Shown here: positions 3,695 to 8,803 of the stretch, piece after piece
How positions within the stretch are numbered: the first letter of the stretch is position 1
How the letters are laid out: each line of letters begins with the position of its first letter
Origin: Alphaproteobacteria bacterium
GTDB lineage: Bacteria; Pseudomonadota; Alphaproteobacteria; Thalassobaculales; Thalassobaculaceae
Assembly: GCA_024742605.1 (NCBI GenBank)
Contig: JANSYC010000038.1
Coordinates: 1 to 35,528, forward strand
Length of the DNA stretch: 35,528 bases
Reading direction: 5' to 3'
Notes under the pieces: generated by a model
What the model was told of the DNA's origin: nothing
Database searches by the model: none
The model's input: only the letters and a program-made list of their open reading frames with translations
Translations under genes and position numbers: made by a program

Positions 3695-6600
3695 TTAGCT
3701 GCAGCCGCTGGTGCCGCCGCAGGTGTCGCATTTCAGGCAGGTTCCGTTCCGAACCAGGGTGAAGTTGCCGCATTCACCACAGCTTTCGCCCTCATAGCCC
3801 TTCATTTTGGCCTCGACCACACGGTTGAGCCGGGTTTCCTGTTTGCTCGGACCTTGCGAGGTCGGGCGATTAATCACCGCTGCACCGGTTGATCCGTCGG
3901 AATATCCACCGCTGGTCAACGGAACTTCCGTTGACGTTCCCGCATCCAGCATCATGCCAGTGGTCCCATCGGCCTTGCCCCCGCCTTCGAAGACCCGAAG
4001 GTTCGGTGTGCGGACCTCCGCCCGGACAAAGCCCCGTGAAGCCGCGTCCGAAACCTTTTCCAGCATCTTGTTGGCTTGGGCGATGTCGTACTCCTCGCCT
4101 TCGCCGTCGCCGACCGTATCCGGAGCCAGATCGTCCAGGTTCACATGGGCCAGATCGTGGCGATCGAGATAGGAAATCGCCAGCTCCCGGAACGTGTAGT
4201 CCAGGATTGAGGTCGACATCTTGATCGCGTCATTCCCCTGGACCAGACCTTGCGGCTCGAACCGTGTGAAGGTGAACGCATCCACGAACTCCTCCAGCGG
4301 CACGCCGTACTGCAGGCCGATCGAGACGGCGATCGCGAAGTTGTTCATCAACGAGCGGAAGGCGGCACCCTCCTTGTGCATGTCGATGAAGATCTCGCCC
4401 AACCGGCCGTCCTGATATTCTCCGGTCCGCAGGTAGACCTTGTGGCCGCCGACCACGGCCTTCTGGGTGTACCCCTTGCGCCGTTGCGGGAGGCGATCCC
4501 GCTCCACCCGACGCTCGACGATCTTTTCGATCACCTTTTCGACGATCCGCTCAGCCATCACCGGCGCCTTGGCGGCGGGAGATTGTGCCGCGAATGCTTC
4601 GGCCTCATCCTCGTCTTCGAACTCGAAGATGGAGGAGGAGAGCGGCTGGCTCAGCTTCGAGCCGTCACGGTAGAGAGCGTTTGCCTTGATGCCCAGTTTC
4701 CAGGACATCTCATAGGCCCGCGCGCAATCCTCGACCGTGGCGTCATTCGGCATGTTGATGGTCTTCGAGATCGCGCCCGAGATGAACGGCTGCGCCGCAG
4801 CCATCATCCGGATATGGCTTTCGGTGTTGAGATACCGTTTGCCGATGCGACCGCAGGGGTTCGCGCAATCGAACACCGGCAGATGCTCGTCCTTCAGGTG
4901 CGGCGCGCCCTCAAGGGTCATCGCTCCGCAGACGAAGGTGTTGGCAACCTCGATGTCCATCCTGGAGAAACCCAGTTCGCTCAGCATGTCGAAGCCGAAG
5001 TCGTTGAGCTGTTCGTCGGTAAGGCCCAGAACCTCACGGCAGAAGGCTTCGCCCAGGGTCCACTTGTTGAACGCGAACTTGATATCGAAGGCCGAGACCA
5101 GACCCTGTTCGAGGGCCGCGATCTGTGCGTCACCGAACTTCTTCGCCTTCAGGGTCTCGTGGTTGATGGCAGGGGCGCCGGCAAGGGTGCCGTGACCCAC
5201 CGCGTACCGGATGATCTCCTCAACCTGATCCTCGGCGTAGCCCATGTTGGTCAAGGCTGCCGGAACCACGCGGTTGATGATCTTGAAGTAGCCGCCCCCT
5301 GCCAGCTTCTTGAACTTGACGATCGCGAAGTCCGGCTCGATTCCGGTGGTGTCGCAATCCATCACCAGGCCGATCGTGCCGGTGGGCGCGATGACGCTGG
5401 TCTGGGCGTTGCGGTAGCCATGCTGCTCACCCAAGGCCAGAGCCTGATCCCAGGCCTGCTTGGAGGCGACGACCAGGGCCTGGTCCGGGCAGTTCTCGGC
5501 ATCCAGTGGAACCGGCTTGATCGCCAGTTCTTCGTAGCCTTCGGTCTCGCCATGGGCGGCCCGCCGGTGGTTGCGGATCACCCGCAGCATGGAGAGGGCA
5601 TTCTCGTCATAGCGCGGGAAGGGACCCAACTCGCCGGCCATCTCGGCCGAGGTCGCGTAGGCCACGCCGGTCATGATGGCGGTCAGGGCGCCGCAGAGTG
5701 CCCGACCCTTGTCGCTGTCATAGGACAGGCCCATGGACATCAGCATGCCGCCGATATTGGCGTATCCGAGACCGAGGGTCCGATAGTCGTAGCTGAGTTG
5801 CGCGATCTCCTTGGAGGGAAACTGCGCCATCAGCACGGCGATTTCCAGCGTCACGGTCCAGAGCCGGACCGCATGACGATAGTTGTCGATGTCGATATTG
5901 CCGTCGGCCTTCTGGAACTGCATCAGGTTCAGGGACGCCAGATTGCAGGCGGTGTCGTCCAGGAACATGTATTCAGAGCACGGGTTCGACGCATTGATTC
6001 GGCCGCCGGCCGGGCAGGTGTGCCAATCGTTGATGGTGGTGTCGTATTGGACGCCCGGATCGGCGCTGGCCCAGGCGGCGTTGGCGATCTTGTCCCAGAG
6101 GTCGCGGGCGCGCAGGGTCGCGGAGATGCCGCCGTCCTTGCGCCGGATCAGATTCCAGTCCTCATCCTTCTCGACGGCCTCCAGGAAGGCGTTCGACAGG
6201 CGGACCGAGTTATTGGAGTTCTGACCGGAGACCGTCAGATAGGCCTCGCTGTCCCAATCGGTGTCGTAGGTCTTGAAGTCGATTTCGTCAAAGCCCTGCT
6301 TGGCGAACTGGATCACCCGCTGCACGTAGTTGAGCGGAATCATGACGTCCTTGGCGGCCTTTACGGCAGCCTTCAGGACCGGATTCTTCTTCGGCTCATA
6401 GGCATCCTCGCCCATGGTGGCGCGGGCCTCGACGCAGGCGGCCATCACGGCCTTCATCGACCGGTTGGCCAGTTTGGATCCGGCGACCAATGCGGCCACT
6501 TTCTGCTCTTCGGTGACCTTCCAGTCGATATAGGCCTCGATGTCCGGGTGATCGATGTCAACCGTCACCATCTTGGCGGCCCGGCGGGTGGTGCCGCCGG

Positions 6601-7408
6601 ACTTGATCGCACCGGCCGCCCGGTCGCCGATCTTCAGGAAACTCATCAGGCCGGAAGACTTGCCGCCGCCGGACAGGCTCTCGTTCTCGCCGCGCAGCTT
6701 CGAGAAGTTGGAGCCGGTGCCGGAGCCGTATTTGAACAGCCGTGCCTCACGGACCCAGAGATCCATGATGCCGCGCTCGTTCACCAGGTCGTCCTCGACG
6801 GACTGGATGAAACAGGCATGCGGCTGCGGGTGTTCATAGGCCGACTTGGACTTGACCAGTTTGCCGCTCTGATAGTCGACATAGTGATGGCCCTGTGCCG
6901 GACCGTCGATGCCATAGGCCCAATGCAGGCCGGTGTTGAACCATTGAGGAGAATTCGGCGCCGCCATCTGGCGCGCAAGCATCGCACACATCTCGTCGTA
7001 ATACGCCCGGGCATCCGATTCCTGATCGAAATAGCCACCCTTCCAACCCCAATAGGTCCAGGTGCCGGCCAACCGATGAAAGACCTGCTTGGCGCTGTGC
7101 TCGGAGGTGGTGCGTTCCTCGACCGGAAGATTGGCAAGCGCCTTTTCATCAGGTGCTTCGCGCCACAGCCAGGAGGGAACGTTCTTTTCCTTGACCTTCA
7201 CACGGACCGAAGGAACGCCGGCCTTGCGGAAATACTTCTGGGCCAGGATGTCGCTGGCGACCTGGCTCCAATCGGCGGGAATCTCTACATCGTCACGGCG
7301 AAACACGACGGAGCCATCCGGGTTGCGGATCTCCGACGTCGTGGCGCGAAACGCGATACCGAAATAAGGCTCTTTGCCTTCCACGGTGAAGCGGCGCTCG
7401 ATCTTCAT
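3695..7408 (-). CDS. nrdJ: Adenosylcobalamin-dependent (class II) ribonucleotide reductase
   Basis: NrdJ reduces ribonucleotides to deoxyribonucleotides using adenosylcobalamin to generate the active-site thiyl radical, so it needs no oxygen-dependent small subunit. The 1237-residue product has the class II order: [10 protein letters not shown] near 151, partner cysteine C199, the N475-x-C477-x-E479 active-site triad (C477 the expected thiyl cysteine) and the second disulfide cysteine C488. [15 protein letters not shown] is the phosphate-binding loop. A long C-terminal extension ends in a Cys-rich CGECG...CLKC..CGG segment that probably binds zinc and re-reduces the enzyme. I place the start at 7408 because AGGAG precedes that ATG by 10 bases; an in-frame ATG at 7462 lacks this. 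Two NrdR-like boxes lie 103-149 bases upstream. I see no cobalamin riboswitch. Confidence 0.97.
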
Positions 7409-7510
7409 GGCTTTGTCACTCCTTGCCTGTCCGTCCGTAATGGCGCCATCACGGGCGGCCATTCATGTGTTTTTCGGTCGATTCAGTCTCTCGGGTGCAT
7501 CGGGCGGCAG

Positions 7511-7526
7511 CCACAAGATCTTGTAC
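7511..7526 (-). promoter_or_regulatory. NrdR-box-like site, proximal
   Basis: The 16-mer CCACAAGATCTTGTAC contains a perfect 12-bp palindrome, ACAAGATCTTGT. It keeps the strongest positions (C, A, central AT, T, G) of the published NrdR box acaCwAtATaTwGtgt. Its centre is 31 bp from the next site, the three-helical-turn spacing usual for paired NrdR boxes. It lies upstream of nrdJ, the expected target class. Confidence 0.7.
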
Positions 7527-7536
7527 CGTTGATCTC

Positions 7537-7565
7537 AAACTACCCAATACCTTGTGTATCTGCAA
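7537..7565 (-). promoter_or_regulatory. Candidate nrdJ promoter
   Basis: On the minus strand, TTGCAG (7560-7565) is followed after 17 bases by TAGTTT (7537-7542). Both hexamers are only partial matches to the sigma-70 type. The distal NrdR-like box would sit in the spacer, which fits repression, but the promoter call is weak by itself. Confidence 0.3.
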
Positions 7566-7761
7566 CATCGATCTTCATGCTTTCGCCACTTTCCGGAACG
7601 GCCTCAAAACCTGGCAGTCTTGGGTCGAAAATGTCGAAGCCCTGCGCGAATCCAACCGTTACGAGACGCGGATGGTCCCGCTCAAGCTGCTCTCCAAATT
7701 TGAGGTGGGCGTTTGGCTTCTGCCGGTCCGCCTGTGCCAAGGTGTACCCGAAGGCCCCCAT
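7540..7761 (-). CDS. Possible small protein of 73 residues
   Basis: A minus-strand frame upstream of nrdJ reads MGAFGYTLAQADRQ, then RLVTVGFAQGFDIFDPRLPG and a short acidic end. The composition is protein-like and codon third positions are moderately GC-rich. No ribosome-binding site is evident and I know no family. Its last codons overlap the distal NrdR-like site and the candidate nrdJ promoter, which argues against it. A plus-strand frame of 104 codons across the same DNA looks less convincing. Confidence 0.3.
   Translation of the reverse strand: MGAFGYTLAQADRQKPNAHLKFGEQLERDHPRLVTVGFAQGFDIFDPRLPGFEAVPESGESMKIDVADTQGIG
7542..7557 (-). promoter_or_regulatory. NrdR-box-like site, distal
   Basis: Read on the minus strand the 16-mer is ACACAAGGTATTGGGT, matching 13 of 16 positions of the NrdR consensus. 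Its centre (7549.5) is exactly 31 bp from the centre of the proximal site (7518.5). Paired boxes at this distance bind NrdR, the zinc-ATP-cone repressor of ribonucleotide reductase genes. Confidence 0.7.
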
Positions 7762-8140
7762 GGCTTGTTATCTTGTTGAAGAGTGACGCAAGATATGGGG
7801 TCTATTCAAGAATTCTTTGTGCTTGACGCGGTCCGATTTTCTTCCCCCCCGCAGGCCTGGTTCGGGAGTGGCGGAATTCTGGGATTCTTGATTTCAAGGG
7901 TCGGTGTTTCGTCAACTGATGCCGTTGCTGGATGAGGTAGAATCCATTTGAATCAAAGAGTCCTGAGTGGGCCTTCATGCAAAAATGCAACCTAAGAACG
8001 TTTCTAATCCTGTGTTTTAAGCGCCATGTGTTCGTTGGTGTCTTGATTTGACGGAGAGGGTGCCGCGCGCCAGCATGCTCCCCCAAACAGGCGCTTCGAA
8101 GGTGCCCATACAACATATAGAGATCTGGAGGATTCACAGC
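7762..8140. other. Intergenic region upstream of the RraA-like gene
   Basis: About 380 bases of relatively A/T-rich sequence with a run of eight C at 7844-7851. I see no convincing coding frame, RNA gene or clear promoter. A 111-codon minus-strand frame starting at 8137 has no coding character. The right end carries the GGAGG ribosome-binding site of the next gene. Confidence 0.35.
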
Positions 8141-8803
8141 ATGGCGATCATTCGCAGGGACGGCAGCTACATCCCCCTTGCCGAGGATATCCTCGCACGT
8201 TGGCGGCAGGTGCCGCCGGCGGTGGCAGGCGACAATATGAACCGCGATCGGTCGATGTCCTCAGGTGTGAGCCCGGTTGCTCCCGGTCAGCCGATTACCG
8301 GCCATGCCCGAACGGTCGCCGTGATGGCCGGCGACAATTCCGCTATCCACGCGGTGCTCCCGTTGCTGCAGCCCGGCGAAATTCTGGTGATCACTGCCCG
8401 TGGAGGCGGCGATGTGGCGATCATCGGCGAGATCGTGGTCGAATGCGCGAAGTATCAGAAATGCGGCGGGATCGTGATCGACGGTGCCGTTCGGGACATC
8501 TCGGCGCTCCGTACCCTTGGTGTGCCTGTCTACGCCACCGGTGCGACACCGCGCGGGCCACATAAGGGTTTTGGCGGGGAGATCGATGTGACGATTTCCT
8601 GCGGCGATGTTGTCGTCGCACCCGGCGATCTGGTGCTGGGAGACGATGACGGAGTGACCATCGTCCCGCGCGGCATGTGTGACGAGATTCTGCCGCTGGG
8701 AGAAGCCCAGGTGCAGAAGGAGGCCGACGTCATCGCCAAGGTCAAATCCGGCGTCACGACAGCGGAGGTCCAGGGGATTTCGGTTCCGGAGGTGTCGGGG
8801 TAA
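8141..8803 (+). CDS. RraA-like family protein (HMG/CHA aldolase-like)
   Basis: A 220-residue member of the family that includes 4-hydroxy-4-methyl-2-oxoglutarate (HMG) / 4-carboxy-4-hydroxy-2-oxoadipate (CHA) aldolases, which cleave such acids to pyruvate, and the RNase E inhibitor RraA. The core is present: GEILVITARGGGDVAIIGEI near 79-98, then GGIVIDGAVRD with R118-D119, the substrate-carboxylate Arg and metal-site Asp of the aldolases. GDLVLGDDDGVTIVP follows near 162-176. The intact R-D pair favours an enzyme over a pure regulator. The ATG at 8141 has GGAGG nine bases upstream; the frame is open further 5' but without such a site. The downstream GH18 gene starts 33 bases after the stop. 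Substrate cannot be read from the sequence. Confidence 0.85.
   Translation: MAIIRRDGSYIPLAEDILARWRQVPPAVAGDNMNRDRSMSSGVSPVAPGQPITGHARTVAVMAGDNSAIHAVLPLLQPGEILVITARGGGDVAIIGEIVVECAKYQKCGGIVIDGAVRDISALRTLGVPVYATGATPRGPHKGFGGEIDVTISCGDVVVAPGDLVLGDDDGVTIVPRGMCDEILPLGEAQVQKEADVIAKVKSGVTTAEVQGISVPEVSG

Follow-up and report, generated by a model that had tools for sequence, protein, structure and literature searches.

A predicted NrdR operator of two boxes upstream of a class II ribonucleotide reductase gene in a Thalassobaculaceae genome

The stretch of DNA analyzed in this study, referred to as the window (35,528 nucleotides), carries nrdJ, which encodes a class II ribonucleotide reductase that depends on vitamin B12, and a preliminary description had placed tandem NrdR boxes upstream of it, at 7511–7557. 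The question raised by this locus is whether these boxes constitute an operator through which the dNTP-sensing repressor NrdR would control nrdJ. The gene and its likely ribosome-binding site are located as follows.

3695–7408, (−) strand: nrdJ, vitamin B12-dependent class II ribonucleotide reductase
7419–7423, (−) strand: likely ribosome-binding site AGGAG for the start at 7408, from reading the sequence

The nrdJ product matches PRK07562.1 with 2224 bits (cut-off 1737) and contains PF02867, PF08471, and PF12637; these matches were computed on the longer open reading frame, which is open from 7462. A start at 7408 is more likely than one at 7462 because AGGAG at 7419–7423 is followed by MKIERRF, as in the relatives. 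Pattern-based start finding places a Met at the same M.I.RRF segment in many relatives, and the start positions of the nrdJ loci used for comparison were assigned with a custom pattern for this segment.

The two boxes are found on the strand of the gene.

7542–7557, (−) strand: NrdR box 1, gene-distal, ACACAAGGTATTGGGT; C4 and G13 retained, centre GT instead of AT; 11.9 bits
7511–7526, (−) strand: NrdR box 2, gene-proximal, GTACAAGATCTTGTGG; central AT, C4 and G13 present; 16.9 bits

Both scores were obtained with a profile trained without the window's genus, from which loci L005 and L006 were excluded and in which identical upstream regions were merged (91 loci, 81 pairs used). Along the nrdJ strand, box 1 is followed by 15 bp and then by box 2, giving a start-to-start distance of exactly 31 bp, in agreement with the three-turn spacing given in the preliminary description. 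The perfect 12-bp palindrome that had been read in the core of the proximal box is present in box 2 (ACAAGATCTTGT). Box 1 has 3 mismatches to ACACWATATATWGTGT, which we take to be the NrdR-box consensus, as expected from the 13 of 16 matching positions counted earlier for the distal box, and it is the sole match in the window at ≤3 mismatches (0.02 expected, from 100 shuffles). Scored as a pair with a pair profile that was again trained without the genus, the two boxes reach 28.8 bits, and the next pair with a 31-bp spacing in the 35.5-kb window reaches 15.2. With a profile from 75 loci outside the family genomes, where the family of a named locus was known only if its contig matched a family genome, the corresponding values are 29.8 and 16.2 bits, and this held-out profile bears out the claim of tandem boxes at this place. 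When the 600-bp region upstream of the gene was resampled 200 times with a first-order Markov model, no pair of ≥18 bits arose. The genome scan proposed in the preliminary description found the pair pattern (≤3 mismatches) once in the 4.47-Mb genome; the reversed-pattern control had no match.

Conservation of the two sites and of their spacing, on which the preliminary description had made its reading depend, is evident at two levels. Among 95 nrdJ loci (110 loci, less 14 without a recognized start and L048, which has too little upstream DNA, with near-duplicates kept separate), the commonest distance between high-scoring boxes is 31 bp, with 20 pairs and none in 50 resampled sets; spacings of 33, 30, and 32 bp are represented by 9, 3, and 3 pairs, respectively. 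A pair above 14 bits is present in 96 of 102 nrdJ loci versus 1.3% of resampled ones, most of these loci having themselves trained that profile. In the family, where 36 genomes were searched, nrdJ was found in 30 and 29 loci were used, since the contig of G015 begins inside the gene; L035, L039, L123, L021, and L026 were omitted as duplicates or fragments (L035, from Thalassobaculum litoreum, and L117, from G046, are identical over 500 bp upstream of nrdJ, which makes the family probably Thalassobaculaceae). With the held-out profile, a pair of at least 18 bits with the boxes 30–32 bp apart was recognized in 27 of the 29 family loci. The pairs occupy two placements, proximal in 22 loci and distal in 23, with both in 19, and the 29.8 bits of the window's pair is higher than the score of every family proximal pair except that of a congener (31.9 bits). 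From its sequence, the pair at 7511–7557 is thus confirmed as a real, ordinary, and well-conserved predicted NrdR operator.

The genome encodes the regulator. One nrdR gene exceeds the curated cut-off (TIGR00244, 169 bits; cut-off 124.65), on contig C97; it is intact, with both the zinc ribbon and the ATP-cone present, which settles the presence of nrdR, raised as a check in the preliminary description. It is flanked by open reading frames that, from their translations, read as glyA and ribD, and the 3.4 kb around it contain one single site above 9 bits (10.6 bits). A second class II reductase gene lies on contig C114 (L002:868–3252; 794 amino acids; TIGR02504, 576 bits). No box pair was found within 4.4 kb around this gene, and the lone site above 9 bits there (10.3 bits) is intragenic; a role for NrdR at that gene was rejected on this basis. 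Searches of the genome detected neither a class I small subunit nor a class III enzyme; of 14 control genomes, 7 were positive in the first search and 6 in the second.

Across the family, the search for nrdR was positive in 25 of the 36 genomes, and in 17 of the 20 most complete. The pair is found in 21 of 22 loci from genomes with a detected nrdR, the exception being L024 (G009), and in 6 of 7 loci from genomes without one. Five of the loci with a pair and no detected nrdR (L010, L012, L017, L018, and L121) come from assemblies that are 59–90% complete, and in these nrdR may simply be missing from the assembly. The sixth, L016 (G012, a single contig, 99% complete), has a 30.4-bit pair in DNA of 24% GC, and L023, on the single contig of G020, has neither a detected nrdR nor a pair. 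Contigs C1 of G012 and G020 are both AT-rich single-contig family genomes of 1.5 Mb without detected nrdR, with the box pair only in that of G012. The pair itself is kept well across the family, but sites and regulator are not cleanly lost together, and this loose link to nrdR counts against the operator reading.

A weak promoter had been proposed across the distal box. The consensus promoter scan of the window gave 0 matches, and what speaks for a promoter here is sequence conservation around box 1. Of the 22 family proximal pairs, all have TTG ahead of box 1 (TTGC in 19) and all have GTA at the end of box 1, 21–23 bp past the TTG; the boxes are ∼2 bp closer to the TTG in the window's genus than in the relatives. 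From this pattern we infer the following elements, with a putative transcription start of nrdJ near 7530.

7560–7565, (−) strand: putative −35 element TTGCAG, containing the conserved TTG that precedes box 1 in proximal pairs
7537–7542, (−) strand: putative −10 element TAGTTT, spaced 17 bp from the −35 element and sharing the final base of box 1; not a consensus match

With these elements, the reading that we favor, at a probability of roughly 0.93, is that the two boxes form the operator of NrdR for nrdJ and that NrdR is predicted to bind and repress there. At high dATP, NrdR would form a tetramer carrying both dATP and ATP, as it does in Streptomyces, E. coli, and other bacteria, and would bind the two boxes, which three helix turns place on the same side of the DNA. 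Box 1 would occupy the spacer between the −35 and −10 elements, and box 2 would cover approximately +4 to +20, just after the putative start, so that bound NrdR would exclude RNA polymerase and nrdJ expression would fall. Since the searches detected class II reductases alone, such control would amount to feedback, at the level of transcription, on one of the two enzymes by which this bacterium makes dNTPs. Published work (PMC9110341, PMC12051234) shows that NrdR tetramers carrying ATP and dATP occupy two boxes separated by three helix turns, and Escherichia coli NrdR has been shown to require both boxes. The critical GC pairs named in PMC9110341 map by arithmetic to C4 and G13, which are kept in both boxes of the window, and positions 9 and 40 of that system are likewise 31 apart.

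The alternatives concern the origin of the boxes and their strength. Single boxes with 3 mismatches do arise in 2 of 100 shuffles, but a chance similarity in upstream DNA would also have to account for a 29.8-bit pair where none of the 200 resampled regions reached 18 bits, and for a pair that occurs once in the genome and is conserved in the congener and the family; we regard it as having practically no probability. Palindromic sites are common among dimeric repressors, and the perfect palindrome of box 2 could in principle serve another regulator with a similar site. The 31-bp spacing, the consensus, and the gene context nevertheless fit NrdR, both over the 96 of 102 loci and over the 27 of 29 family loci scored with the held-out profile, and nrdR is present in the genome, which makes another regulator very improbable.

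A further explanation accepts that the pair is derived from NrdR sites and holds that it is weak or decaying, with NrdR control of nrdJ slack in this genus. Consistent with this, the distal pair found in 23 of the 29 family loci was not found in L005 and L006, and the central AT of box 1 is replaced by GT in both congeners. The pair is retained in the congener, however, and its score in the window is surpassed among family proximal pairs only by that congener's, so that we consider decay unlikely. The GT centre, which L006 shares, has a cost: the profile strongly prefers AT there, and the G at the centre position contributes −2.8 bits. An E. coli nrdAB box with a non-canonical centre still binds well within its pair (PMC12176259); the GT centre may therefore tune binding rather than abolish it, and the binding strength of an operator with this box 1 is uncertain.

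With NrdR favored as the regulator of nrdJ, the role of the cofactor can be considered. The preliminary description had seen no cobalamin riboswitch, and Rfam searches agree: at the gathering score RF00174 had no match in the window or in the nrdJ loci of 27 relatives, and no other Rfam RNA matched at nrdJ. At a lax threshold, the region 7400–8200 gave no cobalamin riboswitch and only unrelated weak matches. The one RF00174 match of the genome is on contig C32, where it runs into the start of an open reading frame that resembles HupE/UreJ from its translation. An "nrdJ RNA motif" has reportedly been published; no such family was matched in Rfam, and this candidate was rejected for nrdJ. Control of nrdJ by B12 through some other route may exist.

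The predicted operator can be compared with three known systems. The nrdRJ operator of Streptomyces coelicolor (PMC9110341) likewise precedes a class II nrdJ and has two boxes with conserved GC positions, 31 bp apart and near the promoter; unlike that system, nrdR (C97) is here apart from nrdJ (C150), and the operator is predicted from sequence. In Pseudomonas aeruginosa (PMC4409342), two boxes also lie before the class II gene, and NrdR represses it under air. In an nrdR mutant of this organism nrdJ is up under air and down without air, and the latter decrease would count against a simple repression reading. P. aeruginosa also has class I and class III enzymes, whereas only class II was found in the window's genome. 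Two-pair NrdR operators are already known from Listeria monocytogenes nrdAB (PMC12051234), and the relatives of the window similarly have a proximal and a distal pair. That operator belongs to a class I operon, whereas in the relatives the gene is nrdJ, the pairs are 282–346 bp apart, and each pair has a possible promoter; the window has the proximal pair only.

The window thus adds a class II gene that is, with good support, predicted to be under NrdR control, from a genome in which reductases of other classes were not detected; feedback from dNTPs and the supply of B12 are expected to converge on nrdJ without a B12 riboswitch. The more unusual features belong to the relatives, and relatives with two operator pairs and a genus with one form a natural contrast. 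The second pair lies 282–346 bp upstream of the first in 19 of the 29 family loci, and 4 more loci have the distal pair only. About where the distal pair of the relatives sits, the window has a single site that is possibly a remnant of it.

7786–7801, (−) strand: weak single NrdR-like site ACCCCATATCTTGCGT; 12.8 bits, best partner 31 bp away 2.4 bits; also in L006

Box 2 of the distal pairs ends in TTGC in 17 of 23 loci, in TTGA in 5, and in TTAT in 1, and this end may act as a −35 element. Over the 175 bases after the distal pair, the fold z is ≤ −2.5 against 60 shuffles in 10 of 25 loci; these include L007 (z −3.8), L017 (−4.0), and L115 (−4.6), and L035 and L117 are one sequence. In L013, L018, L019, L031, L120, L121, L122, L124, and L125, z is between −0.6 and +0.6. 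The corresponding segment is not unusually stable in the window (z +1.2) or in the congener (z −0.5). In one genus represented by five species (L009:1156–1304 and its counterparts in L011, L013, L119, and L120), GGCTTGGCACGGGCCT is invariant, and the distal pair is followed by a hairpin and then by T-rich DNA; the z of L013 and L120 is near −0.4. Among the 35 base pairs predicted in this genus, 7 show two-sided changes and 8 are broken in at least one species. A candidate leader or small-RNA segment after the distal pair is also seen in L007, L010, L017, L035, L115, L116, and L118.

A covariance model built from the five loci of that genus gave strong matches to those five and weak, doubtful ones elsewhere. 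Of the 36 family genomes, 9 had a match at E values up to 1; the source genus accounts for five of these, and the window's genome gave none. A deeply conserved RNA between the pairs was rejected, the model being confident only in its source genus. Rfam has no match at the segment after the distal pair, and a lax threshold gives only unrelated weak matches there. A conserved peptide between the pairs was also dropped, the 73-codon open reading frame of the window being shortened in L006. In some relatives the segment may encode a leader RNA or a small RNA; it is no feature of the window. A broader arrangement for the family can be put forward only tentatively, as possible and rather less than probable: nrdJ would have two NrdR-operated promoters, each served by a box pair, the upstream one making a structured and possibly terminated leader or small RNA in the stretch between the pairs, so that nrdJ would be set by NrdR together with an RNA step, and the window's genus would have lost the upstream unit and would use the proximal operator alone. 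No two-pair operator for alphaproteobacterial nrdJ was described in the literature searched, which consisted mainly of titles and the beginnings of abstracts and lay outside Rodionov and Gelfand (2005).

Other arrangements occur in more distant loci. Close arrays of 3–4 boxes are present in the alphaproteobacterial loci L025, L027, L030, L053, L057, L064, L076, and L085, with a second pair 50–51 bp on or chains of boxes at 31–32 bp. A four-box operator was rejected as a general rule, pair offsets of 50–51 bp occurring ten times among 102 loci and not in the window. The 600 bp ahead of nrdJ contain perfect matches to TTATCCACA, which we take to be the DnaA-box motif, in 19 of 102 loci versus 0.25 expected from resampling, related loci being counted separately. 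These matches include L035 at −445, L115 at −442, and L124 at −474 from the start, with none in the window, and in the Thalassobaculum group they are directly upstream of the distal NrdR pair.
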